This document shows positions 18,901 through 26,224 of a stretch of 36,065 bases of DNA, one piece after another. The stretch is from Nitrospirota bacterium (lineage in GTDB: Bacteria > Nitrospirota > Thermodesulfovibrionia > Thermodesulfovibrionales > JdFR-88). The stretch lies in NCBI GenBank assembly GCA_021789555.1, contig JAJYJK010000022.1:1-36065 (forward strand), read 5' to 3'. The position numbers and the translations under genes were made by a program. The stretch's first letter is position 1, and each line of letters opens with the position of its first letter. The notes below the pieces were generated by a model. It saw only the letters and a program-made list of their open reading frames with translations, had not been told where the DNA came from and did no database searches.

Positions 18901-19067
18901 CCACCGGGGCGGGCGCGGAGGGCCGTTTCAATATGGGCCTGGTGATAATGACCGGCATTTCGATAGGCACCCTCTTTACGCTCTTTGTGGTGCCGGCCAT
19001 GTACATGCTGCTGGCCGCGGACCGCTCAAAAGGCGGGCGCCCGGAAGGGCCTGAAAAAATGAATTAA
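15996..19067 (+). CDS. RND multidrug efflux permease, HAE1 family
   Basis: A 1023-residue proton-driven inner-membrane pump of normal family length. Topology is standard: TM1 after FIRRPVLATVVSLL, a large periplasmic domain, TM2-6, a repeat of the layout, and TM7-12. The proton-relay pair Asp400-Asp401 lies in GLVVDDAIIVVENV and Lys918 in LISKHGILIVQF, matching the essential Asp/Asp/Lys triad of AcrB-like pumps; this argues against a metal-efflux (HME) pump. Likely substrates are hydrophobic or amphiphilic compounds, with specificity not predictable. Its TAA at 19065-19067 interlocks tail to tail with the stop of the minus-strand gene at 19064-19066. Confidence 0.95.
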   Translation: MRFTDIFIRRPVLATVVSLLILVLGLRSMGLLKVREYPAIQSAVVTVSTTYYGADPSLVAGFITTPLESSIAQAGGIDYLTSTSTLGQSTIEANLRLNYDVGKALTEISTRVNAVTDQLPREAQIPQITVAVGEAVDSMYIGFYSKALPTNKITDYLIRVVQPRLQAVDGVQTAEILGEQRFALRAWLDPGKMAAFGVTGSDISGALAANDFISAIGRTKGQMVTVDLTAATGLHTVDEFRDLVIKSRGNAIVRLGDVANVTLGAENYDTSVFFDGKSAVYIGIKVAPNANLLSVIADIHRIFPSIAAQMPQGLSGRIVYDATKYVHSSIREVISTIVKALLIVTLVIFISLGSPRSVVIPTVAMPLSLIGAFFIMLVLGYTINLLTLLALVLAIGLVVDDAIIVVENVHRHIEGGMPPMGAAYQGARELANPIIAISVVLVAVYAPIGFMGGLTGALFTEFAYTLAGTVAVSAVIALTLSPMMCSRFLKPHAPGRQRFVAFVDRWFGRLRGGYQRLLHGSLNYLPVTAVFAAAILLSNYFLYKNSKSELAPTEDQGVIIVLATAAPDATLEQTMLYTRQVYKIMAGYPETDHVFQLDGINGLNSGIAGMVTKPWDKRKATTMELQPQVQGKLGQVTGLQAVAFQRPPLPGGGRGLPVQFVIGATEPYKRLNEVSQALMDKARASGMFAYVDSDLKIDKPQTTVWLDRDKAAQMGLTMSDIGGALGSMLGGGYVNYFDLSGRSYKVIPQVMRRDRLNAADLEGYYIKTLSGESIPVSTVARLKTSVVPESLNHFQQMNSATLSAVPAAGVTLGQALDALLKLSSGVLPGGYSIDYAGQSRQYVQESKALMVTFFFALIIIFLALAALFESFRDPLIVLISVPMSICGAMIFISLGVGGATLNIFTEVGLVTLIGLISKHGILIVQFANDLQGGGKSKREAVETAAVIRLRPILMTTAAMVLGVLPLVTATGAGAEGRFNMGLVIMTGISIGTLFTLFVVPAMYMLLAADRSKGGRPEGPEKMN

Positions 19068-19837
19068 CCAGGGCTTTTCACTTCGGCCCTGAAGGGCGCC
19101 GTCCAGTAAAGCCCCAGATAGCCGACCAGGTGACGTTCGCCGAGGATGCTGTGGCCCGCCGAGAAAAGGAGGCTCATGCCTTCGGTGAAATTGTAGTATC
19201 CGCCAAAATTCAATATCCCTGTGCCCCGCCCGTCTTTCGTCGTTGCCCCCAGCGCGAAGACCTCCCCGCCCAGGGTGAGCCGCCTGCCTAATTCCCTCTG
19301 CGCCATCCAGCCGCCAAAAAGGTAATTCCTGCCGTCAGGGGCATGGTTTATTGTGAAACCCATCCCGCCGTAAGTCGTCCAGGGCCCGAAACTCTTCTGG
19401 AGCCAGATCGGGATTTTTTCCATCGCGCGTCCGTTTCCAAGCCCCCTCGATTCGCTGCCCGAGGGGAGCTCTATCATGGGGAAAATCCCCACCTGGGGCG
19501 AATTCGCGGTCTCCCGTATGAACCTGTATTTGACACCGGCCTCGATGTCCCCGGGGCCGTAGGCCGATGGGCCGTCCCTGGGCAGGGAAAGCGTAAGCGG
19601 TATGACCGCATGAAACTGGGTGTCCGGAGCGACACCCGCGTTGAATTCGAAGGCGGGCGCCTGGAGGGTCGTGCCGTCCCGCGCCCTGTCAATCGTGGAG
19701 AAGGCGTAAAACTCGTAATGCCCGTACTCCACGGGCGCCGGATCATCGGTCAAAAAAGGCGGCCCCGCGAAGGCCCGCGCGGAAATGGCTGAAAAAAGGC
19801 AAAGAGTCAATAAAAAAGGGAGGGACCGCCGATGCAT
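19064..19837 (-). CDS. Predicted outer-membrane protein, unknown function
   Basis: A 257-residue protein with signal peptide MHRRSLPFLLTLCLFSAISA and likely cleavage after AFA, giving a mature N-terminus GPPFLTDDPAPVEYGHYEFY. That opening and the following alternating beta-strand sequence resemble the transporter-like outer-membrane proteins often annotated as hypothetical (phenol-pathway MetA family). Ligand unknown. The open frame extends upstream into trxB, but the ATG at 19837 lies one base after the trxB stop and directly precedes the signal peptide, so it is the start. It is the last gene of a bfr-trxB-OMP operon and meets the RND pump gene tail to tail with no terminator between. Confidence 0.75.
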   Translation of the reverse strand: MHRRSLPFLLTLCLFSAISARAFAGPPFLTDDPAPVEYGHYEFYAFSTIDRARDGTTLQAPAFEFNAGVAPDTQFHAVIPLTLSLPRDGPSAYGPGDIEAGVKYRFIRETANSPQVGIFPMIELPSGSESRGLGNGRAMEKIPIWLQKSFGPWTTYGGMGFTINHAPDGRNYLFGGWMAQRELGRRLTLGGEVFALGATTKDGRGTGILNFGGYYNFTEGMSLLFSAGHSILGERHLVGYLGLYWTAPFRAEVKSPG

Positions 19838-19838
19838 G

Positions 19839-20834
19839 TTACGCCTGGTAATGCGAGCAGCGGTGGCGGGGGACCATGCCTTTATGTCCTTCCACGTAAT
19901 GCGCCGCGGCCAGCGCGGCCGTGCAGCCGTCGGCCGCCGCGATAACGATCTGGTTTGCGTATTTCTGCCTGAGGTCCCCGGCGACGAAGACGCCGGCAAC
20001 ATTTGTCTCGCATTTGCCGTCCGTGATGACGAAGCCCTGTTCGTTCATCCGGACGCCAGGGGGGATCAGGGCATTATTCGGCGCATAGCCGATAAAGATA
20101 AAGACGCCCTCAACCTGCAACCTGCCCTTTTCGCCGGTCTTTATATTTTCGAGGGCGACGGCCCGGACCCCCGTTTCGTCTCCCTCGATTTGCGTTAAGA
20201 CCGTGTTCCAGACCGGCTCTATTACGGGCTCGGCTTTCAGGCGGCCCTGGAGCAGCCTGCTTGCCCGAAGCTCGTCTTTCCGATGGACGTGGTAGACCTT
20301 TTTGGCCAGTTTCGCCAGATAGAGCGCCTCCTCCGCGGCCGTATCGCCGCCGCCGACGACGGCGACCGTTTTGTCCTTGAAGAAAAAGCCGTCGCATGTG
20401 GCGCAGTAGGAGACGCCGCTGCCCAGGTATTCGGCTTCTCCCGGGATGCCGAGCTTCCGCACGGTCCCGCCGAGGGCGAGTATCAGGGAAAGGCTGCGGA
20501 GCGTCTCCCCGCCGGCCAGCCCGACCGTGTGGACGTCGGCCCCGGCCTCCACCTGCGTGACTTCCCGCCGCATGACTTCGAGGCCGAAGGACTCGGCGTG
20601 GCGCAGCATTTTCTCCGCCAGCTCGAACCCGGTTATGCCCTGCATGCCCGGATAGTTCTCCACCTCTTTCGATATGGCAAGCTGTCCGCCGGCCAGCCCT
20701 TTTTCTATGAGCAGCGTCTTCAGGGCGGCCCGCTGGCAGTAGAGACCCGCGGTAAGACCCGCCGGCCCCCCGCCGACTATGATCACGTCATAACATTCTT
20801 CCGTATAATCAAGTCTGGCTTTCATATAATTCAA
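19839..20834 (-). CDS. trxB: Thioredoxin-disulfide reductase
   Basis: FAD/NADPH enzyme reducing thioredoxin. The 331 residues contain the FAD motif DVIIVGGGPAGLTAG, the redox pair Cys144-Ala-Thr-Cys147 in SYCATCDGFFF, the NADPH motif VAVVGGGDTAAEEAL and the C-terminal FAD contact GVFVAGDLRQK. It lacks the extra N-terminal domain of AhpF. The start is TTG at 20834 (GGAAG six bases upstream) or the ATG at 20825; the latter begins MKARLDYTEECYD. The start lies inside a triplicated 21-22-bp repeat shared with the end of bfr. Placement with bacterioferritin suggests iron/oxidative-stress expression, but reduction of thioredoxin itself is a housekeeping role. Confidence 0.93.
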   Translation of the reverse strand: MNYMKARLDYTEECYDVIIVGGGPAGLTAGLYCQRAALKTLLIEKGLAGGQLAISKEVENYPGMQGITGFELAEKMLRHAESFGLEVMRREVTQVEAGADVHTVGLAGGETLRSLSLILALGGTVRKLGIPGEAEYLGSGVSYCATCDGFFFKDKTVAVVGGGDTAAEEALYLAKLAKKVYHVHRKDELRASRLLQGRLKAEPVIEPVWNTVLTQIEGDETGVRAVALENIKTGEKGRLQVEGVFIFIGYAPNNALIPPGVRMNEQGFVITDGKCETNVAGVFVAGDLRQKYANQIVIAAADGCTAALAAAHYVEGHKGMVPRHRCSHYQA

Positions 20835-21613: not shown

Positions 21614-24600
21614 ATGCCCGGCCGGATGGATATGATATGCAGTCTCGACTACCTGATAGGCACGCTCGCCACCGCCTACAAAGGCGTGCTCACCACGCTC
21701 GTTGCAAAGGATTTTTGCATCTGCGAAGCAGACGGGATTTCACTTTTCAAGGGCGCAATCCTTTCGATGCCTGCGGGAGATTATTCCGTCTCCCTCATAA
21801 AAGCAGGGGAGGAGCTTGCCCGCTCGCCCATTGCCTCGGGGGGCAGTTTCGAGCTTGCGGCCGAAAGCGCCCTGACGAGCGAGGCCCCGGACTTGCAGAT
21901 CGATATCCTTCAAAACGGAAGGCACATAGGCACTTTCCTTCTAAAGAGGGGCAAAGGGGGCGCCTTTCCCTTCTACACCCCGGCCTTCGAGCTCTCGGAG
22001 GAGATAAAGGGCGTGGATTTCAATCTCCTCACCCGGCCCCTCGAAGGCAGGCCGGGGCTTCTCCGGAAGGCGGAGGACATCGTCTACACGGCGCTCTCCG
22101 CCAAAAAGGACTGGCGGAAATTCTCCGATGAGCTGCACGGCCTGGCAAACGATCTCTTCTGGCAGCAGCGGGAAGTCTTTTACGGCTCGTTCGGCCTGTT
22201 CGTCAAATTCGCCCTCCTGGCCGCGCAGAAGTCCGAAGCGGGCATTAAGACAGAAAGACCCCTGGCGAATTTCCTGGACCTGATGGAGCAGCCGCTCTCC
22301 ATGGAGAGCGACGCCGGCAGGCTTGAAAAGGCCGTCGATGCGTGGCTGAGTGCGCTAAAGGGTTCCAGGGCGGAGCTTTCCCTCCGGCTCTCCCAATCGG
22401 CGAGGGTGCTGTCCGCGATAAATGTGAAATTCCCGCAGGCCGAAATCGGGCCGGCTGTCCGCGCCCTCTTTGCCTCTCTTTTGGAGAGGATAAAAAAGGC
22501 GCCCGCCCTGAGCGCGGAGGCCCTCGGCGAAATAAAGGGTTTCGTTTCGCCGGATGATTTTCGCGGGATTGAAAGATACGGTGAGGAGGCGAAAAAACGG
22601 CTTTTGGCGGAGATGGAGGAAGCGGGACGCCCAATCGTTGCCGCCGCGAAGACGGCAAAGGGCGTACAGCCGGAAATATATGCCGGGTTTTTCCGACAGA
22701 TGGAAAGACCGGGACTTGCCCTTCCGGATGAGATGGGGATGGTGGAGGGTTTTTTCGGCGCGGTCTCGAAAAATTTCAGCGGGGAAAGCGCACCCGCCTT
22801 TACCCGTGTTTTATTCGAGGTGCTCTCGCGCCTGAAGGAAAACCTCTCCGGCCGGGCCGGAGGCGCACTCATCACCGGTGTTGTAGGGTTCGCGGAAAGG
22901 CTGATGGCGGCGGGAAGGCCCGATTTATGCGTGGAGCTTCTCTCGAAGGTCGCAGGAGAGGGGATAGAGCTGCAAAAGGAGGTGGTCCTCAACGCCGCGA
23001 TGGCCTCCCGGATTCTGGCCTCGCGCGATGAGCTTTTGGCTTTCTATAAAGGCGTTTTGAAGCAGATAATCATTCCGCCGCCGGGCATACGCGGATATTC
23101 GACCGAGACGTGGGCCGAAAACGCAAACCCGCTCCATCTCGAACTCATTTCAAGATTTTTGGAGGTGCTTGGCGCGGGTGGCCCGGAACTTGACGACGTA
23201 AAGGCCCACGTGATATGCAATCTCTTTTTAAGCGGCGTTTTCATCCCGGATGACAGGCTCTTTCAGCGCAAGGTATCGGCATATCTGAATTCCCCCGCCA
23301 TGAAGGGGAATTTTCTCCTCAATTACATGCTGTTAAAGAGGCTCCCCGTTTATTTCAATGAGGTGGGGGCCACCGACATGATAAGGGACTACACCACCCG
23401 GATAGATTCCTGGGGAGACGACCCCGTGCTCTATTTCCTCAGGAAACAGGTCCATGTGAACGCGAGCAACTACAATATCCGCCTTGCCGAAGGCATTATG
23501 AGGGCGTGGGCGGCAAATGAACCCGCTCTCCTGGAGGCGCTCGTGCCCCAAGAGGTTTTTAAGGGCCTTGATAAAAAACTCCTGGAGGGCTATCACCGCG
23601 TGATGAGACCTCTCTTCGAGGCCTTTAACCTTAACCTCTTTGATGAGAAGGGGGACATCCGCTTCGAGGAGAAACTCCTCGATGTCCCGGAGGACCGCAT
23701 GAAAGAGGAGATTGAAAAGATACCAGGCGGGGAGGAGGCGCGCCAGAAGGTGCTCTTTCTTTGCAGGATATATCAGGAGATCGTGAAAAAATACGCCCTT
23801 TTCGGCGGGGCCGCAGTCCCCCGGACCGGCTCCGGCCTTCGAGAATTATTGGATAGCATGGAGTCGGCGAAGGTAAAATTTCTCTCGCCGGAAAAGACGG
23901 AGCCCCGGGAATCCCTCTATTTTAAACGGCACATCGCCTTCGGCATCCCGTCGGTGCTGGGCACCTATCACGAGGAGAAGTTCGACGCGTTTTCCGAATT
24001 CTTGAGGCTTGGGGAAAGGGCGAGGGTGGCCTTTGAGGGGATCATCTCCGGAATCGAAGCCGGGAGCGAGGGAGAAAAAACGGCCGAAAAAATCTCCGAA
24101 TGGGTGGAGGCGCCCGGCCTGGCCAACCGGCTTCTGACGGCTGGCGGGATTGCCAATTTCCAGGCGGATGAATTTTCAGTGGTCCTCGCATCCCTGGACG
24201 GGCTCCGGCCTGGACAGATACTGGACGTCCTTCGCATGTGGCAGAAGGAGATCAGATGGGCCGTGGAATCTTTCAACCGCATTTTCCTGCACCCGCTTGG
24301 CGAAGTGCTAAAGGCGACCCACCCCCTGTCCCTCCCCGGAGGGGCTGATTTTGAAAGGCCCCTTCATGGAGGGGATGATTTTGCCGTGAAGGCGGCGGAT
24401 ATCGTAATCAGGGACATGATGACGAGCATCCCCGGGTTTACGGAGGCCGACAGGCTCATAAACGTCGTGGCGGACAGGATTTCCGCCCGTATCGAGCGGG
24501 ACAAGATCGAGGGGAAGGGCGAGGCGGATATCGTCCCGGCCGGCCCCCGCCCGTCGCCTGGGGAAGAGACGGCGGATTTCCTCATGCTCGATGAGCTGAC

Positions 24601-26092
24601 GGACGCCCAGGCGATGAGGCTTGCTCCCATCATCGGGGGCAAGGCAAAAAACCTGGTCTATCTCAATAACAAGGGATTTTTGGTGCCTCCGGGCGCGGTC
24701 TTTTCCTCCGGACATACATGGGACTATGAGGAGTATACGAAAAGCGGGGGTTTCAGGTCGGCCCTGAGGAGCGCCGTAGGGAAGATAGAGCAAAAGACCG
24801 GGAAGGTCTTTGGCGGGGACAATCCGCTTTTCCTCTCGGTGAGAAGCGGCTCCTATATCTCGATGCCGGGCATTCTGGTGTCAATCCTTTACTGCGGAAT
24901 GAACGGCGAGACGATAAGGGGTTTCACAAAACACACTGGCAACGCGCTTCTGGCCTGGGATTCCTACAGGAGGTTTCTTGAGCATTTCGGGACGTCCGCC
25001 CTCGGCCTTGAGCAAAGACTTTTCGAAGGCATCAAGGGGGATTTCATAAAAAAATACAAGGCGGGCTCACTGGGACAGTTGGATGCCCGCCGCATGGAGG
25101 AGCTTGCCGGCCTTTATCTGGGCGCCCTCTCCGGGATGGGGTTTCAGATACCCGACGACGTATATGAGCAGCTGGGGCTTTCCGTCAGGGCCGTTTACGC
25201 CTCATGGTTTGGCGGGAAGGCCGTGCAGTTTGCGAGGATTACGGGGATGTCGCCAAAATGGGGCACTGCCGTCACGCTGATGCGGATGGTGTCCGGCAAC
25301 GCGCCCGGCGCGGGCGCGTCGGTCTTTTTTACCAGGGACCCGGCCACGCTGGAGGAGGAGGTTTACGGCGAGACGAAACAGGGCGCAACCGGCGACGAGC
25401 TTGTATACGGTGCCGGCATGGCCATGCCGGTTTCGAAGCGGGCCAGGATTGAGGGGCAGCTCAGCCTGGAGGAGAACGACCCGGAGCTCTTCCGGATGCA
25501 TAACGAGCTTGCCCGACGAATAGAAGGCGCACTGGGTGGGCTTCCGCAGGAAGTCGAGGCCACCTACACGCGGGAAGACGGCGGCAGGAAGATATACGTC
25601 CTTCAGACCAGGCGGATGGAATTCGACGCCCGGTTCATAGAACGGTTCGAGGAGATATGCAGGATGGAGTCCAGGGTGATAGGAAGGGGGATAGGGGTGC
25701 ACGGCGGGGCGCTAAGCGGGGTCGCCTCTTTTTCCGATTCCCCGGAGGCCATACGTGCGCTCAGGGAGCAGACCGGACTGCCTGTCATACTTCTCAGGCA
25801 GACGGCAAGCACCGCCGATGTCTCCCTGATGACTGAAGTGGGGGGGATAATAGCGGCTGCCGGCGGGGCGACCTCCCATGCCTCCATCCTGGCCCAGAAA
25901 TTCAACCTTACCGCGATAGCGGGCTGCGGGGACCTTAGGATAGGCCCCGGCCAGCCGGACAGAGAGGGAGGGCGGTTTTGCGCCCGGATAGGAAACGCCG
26001 TCATCCGGGAGGGCGAGCCCATAAGCATGGACGGCCAGACCGGGCTCATCTTTTCGGGCATCTGCCTGGACGTGACAAAAACGAGGCATTAA
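21614..26092 (+). CDS. Large PPDK-like protein: unknown N-terminal region, ATP-grasp, phosphohistidine domain
   Basis: A 1492-residue protein. The ATG at 21614 has GGAG seven bases upstream; a TTG 19 codons earlier lies in a repeat and is rejected. About residues 1-1000 match nothing I recognise: an opening likely beta-rich part, then largely helical sequence. From about 1006 (GGKAKNLVYLNNKGFLVPPG) runs a PPDK_N-type ATP-grasp: SVRSGSYISMPGIL, NAPGAGASVFFTRDP, GDELVYGAG, and KIYVLQTRRMEF near 1330. The swivelling domain follows with catalytic His1422 in GGATSHASILAQKFN, and the protein ends soon after. The PEP/pyruvate barrel of PPDK and PEP synthase is absent, so it is not a PEP-forming enzyme by itself. 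Rifampin phosphotransferase and glucan water dikinase share this module logic, with another domain supplying the acceptor. Acceptor unknown. Confidence 0.8.
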   Translation: MPGRMDMICSLDYLIGTLATAYKGVLTTLVAKDFCICEADGISLFKGAILSMPAGDYSVSLIKAGEELARSPIASGGSFELAAESALTSEAPDLQIDILQNGRHIGTFLLKRGKGGAFPFYTPAFELSEEIKGVDFNLLTRPLEGRPGLLRKAEDIVYTALSAKKDWRKFSDELHGLANDLFWQQREVFYGSFGLFVKFALLAAQKSEAGIKTERPLANFLDLMEQPLSMESDAGRLEKAVDAWLSALKGSRAELSLRLSQSARVLSAINVKFPQAEIGPAVRALFASLLERIKKAPALSAEALGEIKGFVSPDDFRGIERYGEEAKKRLLAEMEEAGRPIVAAAKTAKGVQPEIYAGFFRQMERPGLALPDEMGMVEGFFGAVSKNFSGESAPAFTRVLFEVLSRLKENLSGRAGGALITGVVGFAERLMAAGRPDLCVELLSKVAGEGIELQKEVVLNAAMASRILASRDELLAFYKGVLKQIIIPPPGIRGYSTETWAENANPLHLELISRFLEVLGAGGPELDDVKAHVICNLFLSGVFIPDDRLFQRKVSAYLNSPAMKGNFLLNYMLLKRLPVYFNEVGATDMIRDYTTRIDSWGDDPVLYFLRKQVHVNASNYNIRLAEGIMRAWAANEPALLEALVPQEVFKGLDKKLLEGYHRVMRPLFEAFNLNLFDEKGDIRFEEKLLDVPEDRMKEEIEKIPGGEEARQKVLFLCRIYQEIVKKYALFGGAAVPRTGSGLRELLDSMESAKVKFLSPEKTEPRESLYFKRHIAFGIPSVLGTYHEEKFDAFSEFLRLGERARVAFEGIISGIEAGSEGEKTAEKISEWVEAPGLANRLLTAGGIANFQADEFSVVLASLDGLRPGQILDVLRMWQKEIRWAVESFNRIFLHPLGEVLKATHPLSLPGGADFERPLHGGDDFAVKAADIVIRDMMTSIPGFTEADRLINVVADRISARIERDKIEGKGEADIVPAGPRPSPGEETADFLMLDELTDAQAMRLAPIIGGKAKNLVYLNNKGFLVPPGAVFSSGHTWDYEEYTKSGGFRSALRSAVGKIEQKTGKVFGGDNPLFLSVRSGSYISMPGILVSILYCGMNGETIRGFTKHTGNALLAWDSYRRFLEHFGTSALGLEQRLFEGIKGDFIKKYKAGSLGQLDARRMEELAGLYLGALSGMGFQIPDDVYEQLGLSVRAVYASWFGGKAVQFARITGMSPKWGTAVTLMRMVSGNAPGAGASVFFTRDPATLEEEVYGETKQGATGDELVYGAGMAMPVSKRARIEGQLSLEENDPELFRMHNELARRIEGALGGLPQEVEATYTREDGGRKIYVLQTRRMEFDARFIERFEEICRMESRVIGRGIGVHGGALSGVASFSDSPEAIRALREQTGLPVILLRQTASTADVSLMTEVGGIIAAAGGATSHASILAQKFNLTAIAGCGDLRIGPGQPDREGGRFCARIGNAVIREGEPISMDGQTGLIFSGICLDVTKTRH
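24338..24383 (+). repeat. In-frame 30-bp repeat with palindromic sequence inside the PPDK-like gene
   Basis: GGAGGGGCTGATTTTG (24338-24353) recurs as GGAGGGGATGATTTTG (24368-24383), a period of 30 bp or ten codons, encoding GGADFERPLH and GGDDFAVKAA. The left copy is preceded by CCCTCCCC (24330-24337), and CCCCTTC precedes the right copy, so GC-rich arms like those of the intergenic repeats are present. It may be a repeat captured in the coding frame. Confidence 0.6.
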
Positions 26093-26098
26093 ATGGAT

Positions 26099-26160
26099 AG
26101 CGAGCGTATTCCCCGTGGCTTGGGGACCAGTCCCCTTGCCACGGGGTCAAGCGAGCGAAT
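26099..26160. repeat. Nested palindrome (copy B) flanked by direct repeats
   Basis: Outer stem CCCCGTGGC (26111-26119) pairs perfectly with GCCACGGGG (26138-26146). Its loop contains a second hairpin, GGGGAC-CA-GTCCCC (26122-26135). The unit is flanked by AGCGAGCG direct repeats at 26099-26106 and 26150-26157, which could be a target duplication of a small non-autonomous element. It lies just after the PPDK-like gene; no T run follows. Confidence 0.75.
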
Positions 26161-26188
26161 ATGGTGAAAAAATTCCTTACATTAGATT

Positions 26189-26224
26189 CCCTGCGGCTTG
26201 GGGACCAGTCCCCTTGACGCAGGG
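26189..26224. repeat. Nested palindrome, copy C
   Basis: Outer stem CCCTGCGGC (26189-26197) with GACGCAGGG (26216-26224), one mismatch. The inner hairpin GGGGACCAGTCCCC (26200-26213) is identical to copy B, 78 bp away. It continues into GAAGATCAAT, which also follows the palindrome at 35924-35957, linking the two locations as one repeat family. Confidence 0.75.

Follow-up and report, generated by a model that had tools for sequence, protein, structure and literature searches.

What does a dikinase phosphorylate when it shares the catalytic domains of PPDK and ends where the PEP/pyruvate barrel of that enzyme would begin? The question is raised by a single intact open frame of 1492 codons on the forward strand (21614-26092) of the window, that is, of the whole 36,065-nucleotide stretch of DNA analysed here, which forms one contig (C34) in an assembly of 2.85 Mb. 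The giant frame reported in the initial annotation is real: homologues of the same type at about 31-74% identity run over its full length, far beyond what chance would give, and the starts of these relatives differ from its own by no more than a few residues. The named nearest relatives of the genome are Nitrospirae MAGs. We distinguish two types of these proteins, A and B, and the window protein belongs to type A. The features to which we refer throughout are the following.

21614..26092, + strand: whole gene, encoding a type-A dikinase-like protein of 1492 aa (open frame and full-length homologues)
21632..21949, + strand: beta-sandwich-like N-terminal domain, residues 7-112 (model of moderate confidence, and conservation)
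22019..23020, + strand: helical, solenoid-like segment, residues 136-469 (model and conservation counts)
23021..24508, + strand: conserved helical module, residues 470-965, common to types A and B; proposed acceptor-binding module
23906..23974, + strand: predicted beta hairpin, residues 765-787 (DSSP strands 296-304 and 309-317 of the model)
24614..25633, + strand: PPDK-type ATP-grasp domain, residues 1001-1340 (PDB alignments, model superposition and residue counts)
25634..26089, + strand: phosphohistidine (swivel) domain, residues 1341-1492, at the C-terminal end of the protein (Pfam PF00391 and model)
25877..25879, + strand: codon of His1422, the predicted phosphorylated histidine (equivalent to PPDK His455), in GGATSHA (sequence conservation)
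26108-26146 and 26186-26224: two 39-nt palindromic repeats, an intergenic element with the core GGCTTGGGGACCAGTCCCCTTG

To assess the catalytic end of the protein, we compared it with known families and structures. Only two Pfam matches were obtained for the whole protein, PPDK_N at residues 1043-1266 (E 2e-14) and the PEP-utilisers mobile domain at 1390-1477 (E 1e-14), and phmmer against the PDB matched PPDK at 1004-1335 and 1345-1482, with a best E of 5.9e-52. Residues 470-1492 were modelled with AlphaFold2 from 34 sequences (mean pLDDT 86.7, pTM 0.85); in this model, residues 986-1492 superpose on residues 2-518 of PPDK (1dik; Z 43.3, rmsd 2.1 A, 471 aligned) and the swivel domain on 2fm4 (Z 16.0, rmsd 2.1, 128 aligned), and Foldseek matched the same model to 1kbl with an E of 3.5e-29. 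The PDB alignments pair K1010, R1077, E1315, Q1331 and R1333 with K22, R92, E323, Q335 and R337 of PPDK, residues that, together with His455, have established roles in that enzyme; these ATP-site positions are kept in 30-35 of 35 sequences, and His1422 is invariant in all 34 sequences long enough to include it. The PPDK-type ATP-grasp domain and the histidine of GGATSHA, both named in the initial annotation, are borne out by Pfam, by the PDB search and by the model (Z 43), and so is the missing barrel, as Pfam finds no PF02896 in the 1492-residue protein. The likeness to PPDK therefore covers the ATP-grasp and phosphohistidine domains, their order and the ATP-site residues, but the window protein lacks the C-terminal PEP/pyruvate barrel and carries about 985 extra N-terminal residues, and it scores 251 bits against the PPDK equivalog TIGR01828, below the cut-off of 843.

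The same architecture recurs across the phylum. Homologues were found with a single-sequence query in 44 of 296 Nitrospirota genomes drawn across the phylum, and with a profile built on the central module in 94 of 395, a prevalence of 15-24% of the Nitrospirota genomes searched; the deep survey covered Nitrospirota. A tree built from the shared domains separates type A, type B and canonical PPDK into three clades, of which A and B are well supported; its long branches make the order in which the three split unreliable. Type A proteins have about 1400-1560 residues and type B proteins about 1270-1450, the first ~135 residues of type A appearing to be absent from type B, and wherever the surrounding assembly is uninterrupted, the module is part of a single frame of some 1270-1560 codons. 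Among the carriers of type B is a genus with small, complete genomes, and frame lengths suggest that a few genomes (e.g. G301 and G341) hold two copies, one per type. The idea that the protein might represent a new dikinase-type family, and the accompanying concern that its homologues might already be characterised, can both be addressed from the surveys and the tree: the full-length relatives form clades separate from canonical PPDK and make up an undescribed family, on which we found no paper in the open-licence PMC literature. Judged by its sequences, this is a widespread, undescribed family of PPDK-derived dikinases in Nitrospirota. An environmentally important phylum carries, in small, complete, isolate-like genomes among others, a widespread family with a highly conserved and unassigned module, and few acceptors are known for dikinases of the PPDK type.

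If the barrel is absent, the acceptor would have to be bound elsewhere, and the N-terminal region is where the family differs from PPDK. Residues 1 to about 985 have no match in Pfam, NCBIfam or PDB sequence profiles, which agrees with the earlier placement of this region outside known families, and phmmer of residues 1-1000 against the PDB returned nothing but marginal condensin matches. In a model of the N-terminal side (mean pLDDT 79.5, pTM 0.65), residues 7-112 are predicted to fold as a beta sandwich, with residues 136-960 almost wholly helical; the single region of the initial annotation can accordingly be refined into three segments, the beta domain confined to type A, a variable helical segment and the strongly conserved helical module. 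Foldseek searches with the larger models, in all of which the module was part of a longer chain, gave weak solenoid-type matches only, and the N-terminal model gave no match below E 0.001 against viral models. Between the two types, the N-terminal segments align collinearly but weakly in hhalign (P 0.004, probability 9%), and a search of the type-B genome G031 did not recover the beta domain of type A. Cys9, Cys35 and His104 are invariant in the type-A beta domain (within residues 1-200, window 21614-22213) and may serve to bind a metal or in redox chemistry.

The distribution of invariant positions singles out the module. Within type A, all 34 invariant positions of the first 469 residues fall in 1-200, with none in 201-469. 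In the 496 positions of module 470-965 there are 34 that are invariant in types A and B together, 26 of them polar, charged or Tyr/Trp; such invariants number 16 in the 340 positions of the ATP-grasp domain and 4 in the 152 of the swivel domain, so that the module is constrained to a degree comparable with the catalytic domains. In the hairpin at 765-787, E766, K771-R772-H773, S780, Y785 and E787 are invariant in 35 of 35 sequences, and the invariant basic residues of the module include R591, R610, K611, H614, K771, R772, H773, K789 and R933. At complete loci among the 94 of 395 genomes, the module always lies within the large fused frame and never apart from the dikinase domains. Because it holds more polar and charged invariants than the ATP-grasp domain, module 470-965 is likely to be the acceptor site and is the best candidate predicted from these counts, and its many invariant Arg, Lys and His residues suggest that the acceptor would be a small anionic metabolite, either a carboxylate or a phosphorylated compound.

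The genomic neighbourhood of type B adds a functional hint. Of 18 type-B loci retrieved, 15 have a GAPDH-like gene (~405-446 residues) directly downstream on the same strand, with gaps of -44 to 94 bp; L077:10795-12009 is an example of this divergent family of ~410 residues with insertions, and the remaining 14 loci provide the others. Across the 296 genomes surveyed, the GAPDH-like gene is present in 29 of 29 type-B genomes and in one further genome with no detected dikinase, and in none of the type-A genomes (Fisher p 2e-39, uncorrected for shared descent). It lies on a different contig in three type-B genomes (G252, G156 and G168), and in G156 the dikinase runs to the end of its contig. The GAPDH-like protein scores 309 bits against a GAPDH-I cut-off of 367 and keeps the catalytic Cys and His and the phosphate-site Arg, and its NAD-selecting Asp motif, INDLTD, has become VNxGRxxG. 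Changes at this Asp permit the use of NADP in known GAPDHs (PMC9145139), and the GAPDH-like dehydrogenase is probably NADP-preferring. Type A has neither this partner nor a constant neighbour in the loci compared, so the functional hint comes from the sister type B, where the strict link narrows the substrate to a short, assayable list.

To account for these observations, we propose, as a reasonably probable explanation, that the protein is a PPDK-derived dikinase that works autonomously, forms AMP and acts through a phosphohistidine, with its acceptor in the N-terminal module 470-965. ATP would phosphorylate His1422 with release of AMP and PPi (or AMP and Pi), a step that is strongly suggested by the conserved ATP site and histidine. 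The swivel domain would then swing off the ATP site, as is suggested by homology with PPDK and RPH (PMC5371819, PMC4844700), and the phosphoryl group would be delivered to an acceptor bound by the module, a transfer that we infer from the conservation described above. The module would in this way stand in for the PPDK barrel, although it precedes the ATP domain in the chain.

For type B, the product may be an acyl phosphate, because the dikinase is in an operon with a GAPDH-like dehydrogenase, and this NADP-type partner would reduce it; 3-phosphoglycerate or a related acid is the candidate acceptor. Type B would then be an ATP-to-AMP dikinase that makes an acyl phosphate, for instance from 3-phosphoglycerate, as the AMP/PPi counterpart of phosphoglycerate kinase (PGK) with the GAPDH-like reductase as its partner, a specific assignment that we consider quite unlikely. 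Such a role, for instance in gluconeogenesis, may not carry over to type A. A PGK-like role would also be redundant, because a normal PGK is present in 30 of 30 genomes tested and a normal GAPDH in 29 of 30. If the assignment were true, it would add a third dikinase chemistry to central metabolism, related to PGK as PPDK is to pyruvate kinase. A second, divergent PGK (438-residue frame, ~260 bits) is found beside the normal one in the genome of the window (G000 contig C62:76304-77509) and in about 10 other genomes tested, and it does not track the dikinase.

Module 470-965 could instead be a regulatory or protein-docking scaffold rather than an acceptor site, and the whole protein a protein kinase or regulator, with a phosphohistidine domain that passes phosphate to partner proteins, or binds them, and a helical N-terminus on which they dock. 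VadK (Rv1127c) of M. tuberculosis, a PPDK without the pyruvate domain that has been proposed to act as a histidine kinase on proteins, provides a precedent (PMC13400623); the N-terminus of our protein is helical and solenoid-like, and in type B the target might be the GAPDH-like protein that constantly accompanies the dikinase. We nevertheless regard this reading as unlikely: the matches to solenoid folds are weak, the GAPDH-like partner is missing from type A, and a single module in which 26 polar or charged positions are invariant resembles a small-molecule site. VadK itself has PPDK-type ATP and His domains and no pyruvate domain, as in the window protein, but it comprises only the ATP-binding and catalytic-His domains, and no comparable N-terminal module has been described for it (PMC13400623).

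The preferred reading, an autonomous dikinase with its own acceptor module, can also be set beside the dikinases HpeHI, CreHI and PpsAB, which share an ATP-grasp and swivel pair of PPDK/RPH type (HpeI, 9goj; Z 17.6, rmsd 5.8, 249 aligned). The aromatic dikinases of the HpeHI type are two-component systems, made up of two proteins with an RPH-like acceptor domain (PMC12167813), whereas the window protein is one chain of 1492 residues and is kept as one chain across the family.

Another possibility is a glucan or polysaccharide dikinase like plant GWD, in which the beta domain would bind sugar. Like the window protein, GWD is a very large dikinase whose N-terminal region is long, and residues 21-111 of type A resemble the beta domain of a GH2 beta-glucuronidase (6ec6; Z 7.7, rmsd 2.4, 82 aligned), although this beta-sandwich resemblance is weak and of a common level. 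In GWD the ATP domain comes after the His domain, whereas the window protein has the order of PPDK, ATP and then His; Pfam detects no carbohydrate-binding family (CBM) in the N-terminal region, type B lacks the beta domain, and there are no glycogen or starch genes among the identified neighbours in the window. A sugar-polymer acceptor is, in our judgement, very unlikely.

Highly improbable is a kinase for antibiotics or other small xenobiotics of the rifampin phosphotransferase (RPH) type. The ATP-grasp/His logic is shared (5hv3; Z 26.6, rmsd 3.5, 355 aligned), and with RPH and the small-molecule dikinases the window protein also has in common a non-pyruvate acceptor logic and a His domain at the C-terminal end. 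In RPH, however, the acceptor domain lies between the ATP and His domains, whereas here the ATP-grasp domain (1001-1340) leads directly into the swivel domain (1341-1492). The ATP domain is nearer to PPDK than to RPH, the extra module precedes it and was not matched to RPH by the searches made here, and the family is spread broadly inside one phylum, with no plasmid copies. Taken across these comparisons, the protein is predicted to function like PPDK, RPH, the HpeHI type and GWD and is a member of none of them.

That the protein is a degenerate PPDK, one part of a split PPDK or the chimeric product of a recent rearrangement is scarcely credible, for although its C-terminal third is PPDK-like and has no barrel, it is conserved over its full length across many genera, with an intact ATP site and intact flanking genes. 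A split PPDK in particular was rejected: the genome has no stand-alone barrel gene, and its sole PEP barrel sits in a separate, complete PPDK of 914 residues on contig C32, so the window protein is neither the PPDK of this genome nor half of it. Another frame containing PPDK_N (1083 aa) occurs in the same genome (L002, G000 contig C1, 7779-8426).

The surroundings of the gene, in which the initial annotation had noted repeats and a broken gene, had been taken as signs of a mobile or recently rearranged locus. The repeats are indeed present and belong to a REP-like dispersed palindrome with 10 copies across the genome, but the flanking genes that have a Pfam match look complete. Upstream of the dikinase gene, on the opposite strand, are a thioredoxin-reductase-like gene and a ferritin; downstream come TrmO, an outer-membrane protein and the Kdp operon. 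With intact neighbours, a dispersed repeat, a wide spread in Nitrospirota and no dikinase copies found among plasmids or viral contigs, we rejected a mobile or rearranged locus. One neighbouring frame on the reverse strand (19067-20002) has no Pfam match and is probably an intact secreted or outer-membrane protein with its start near 19837.
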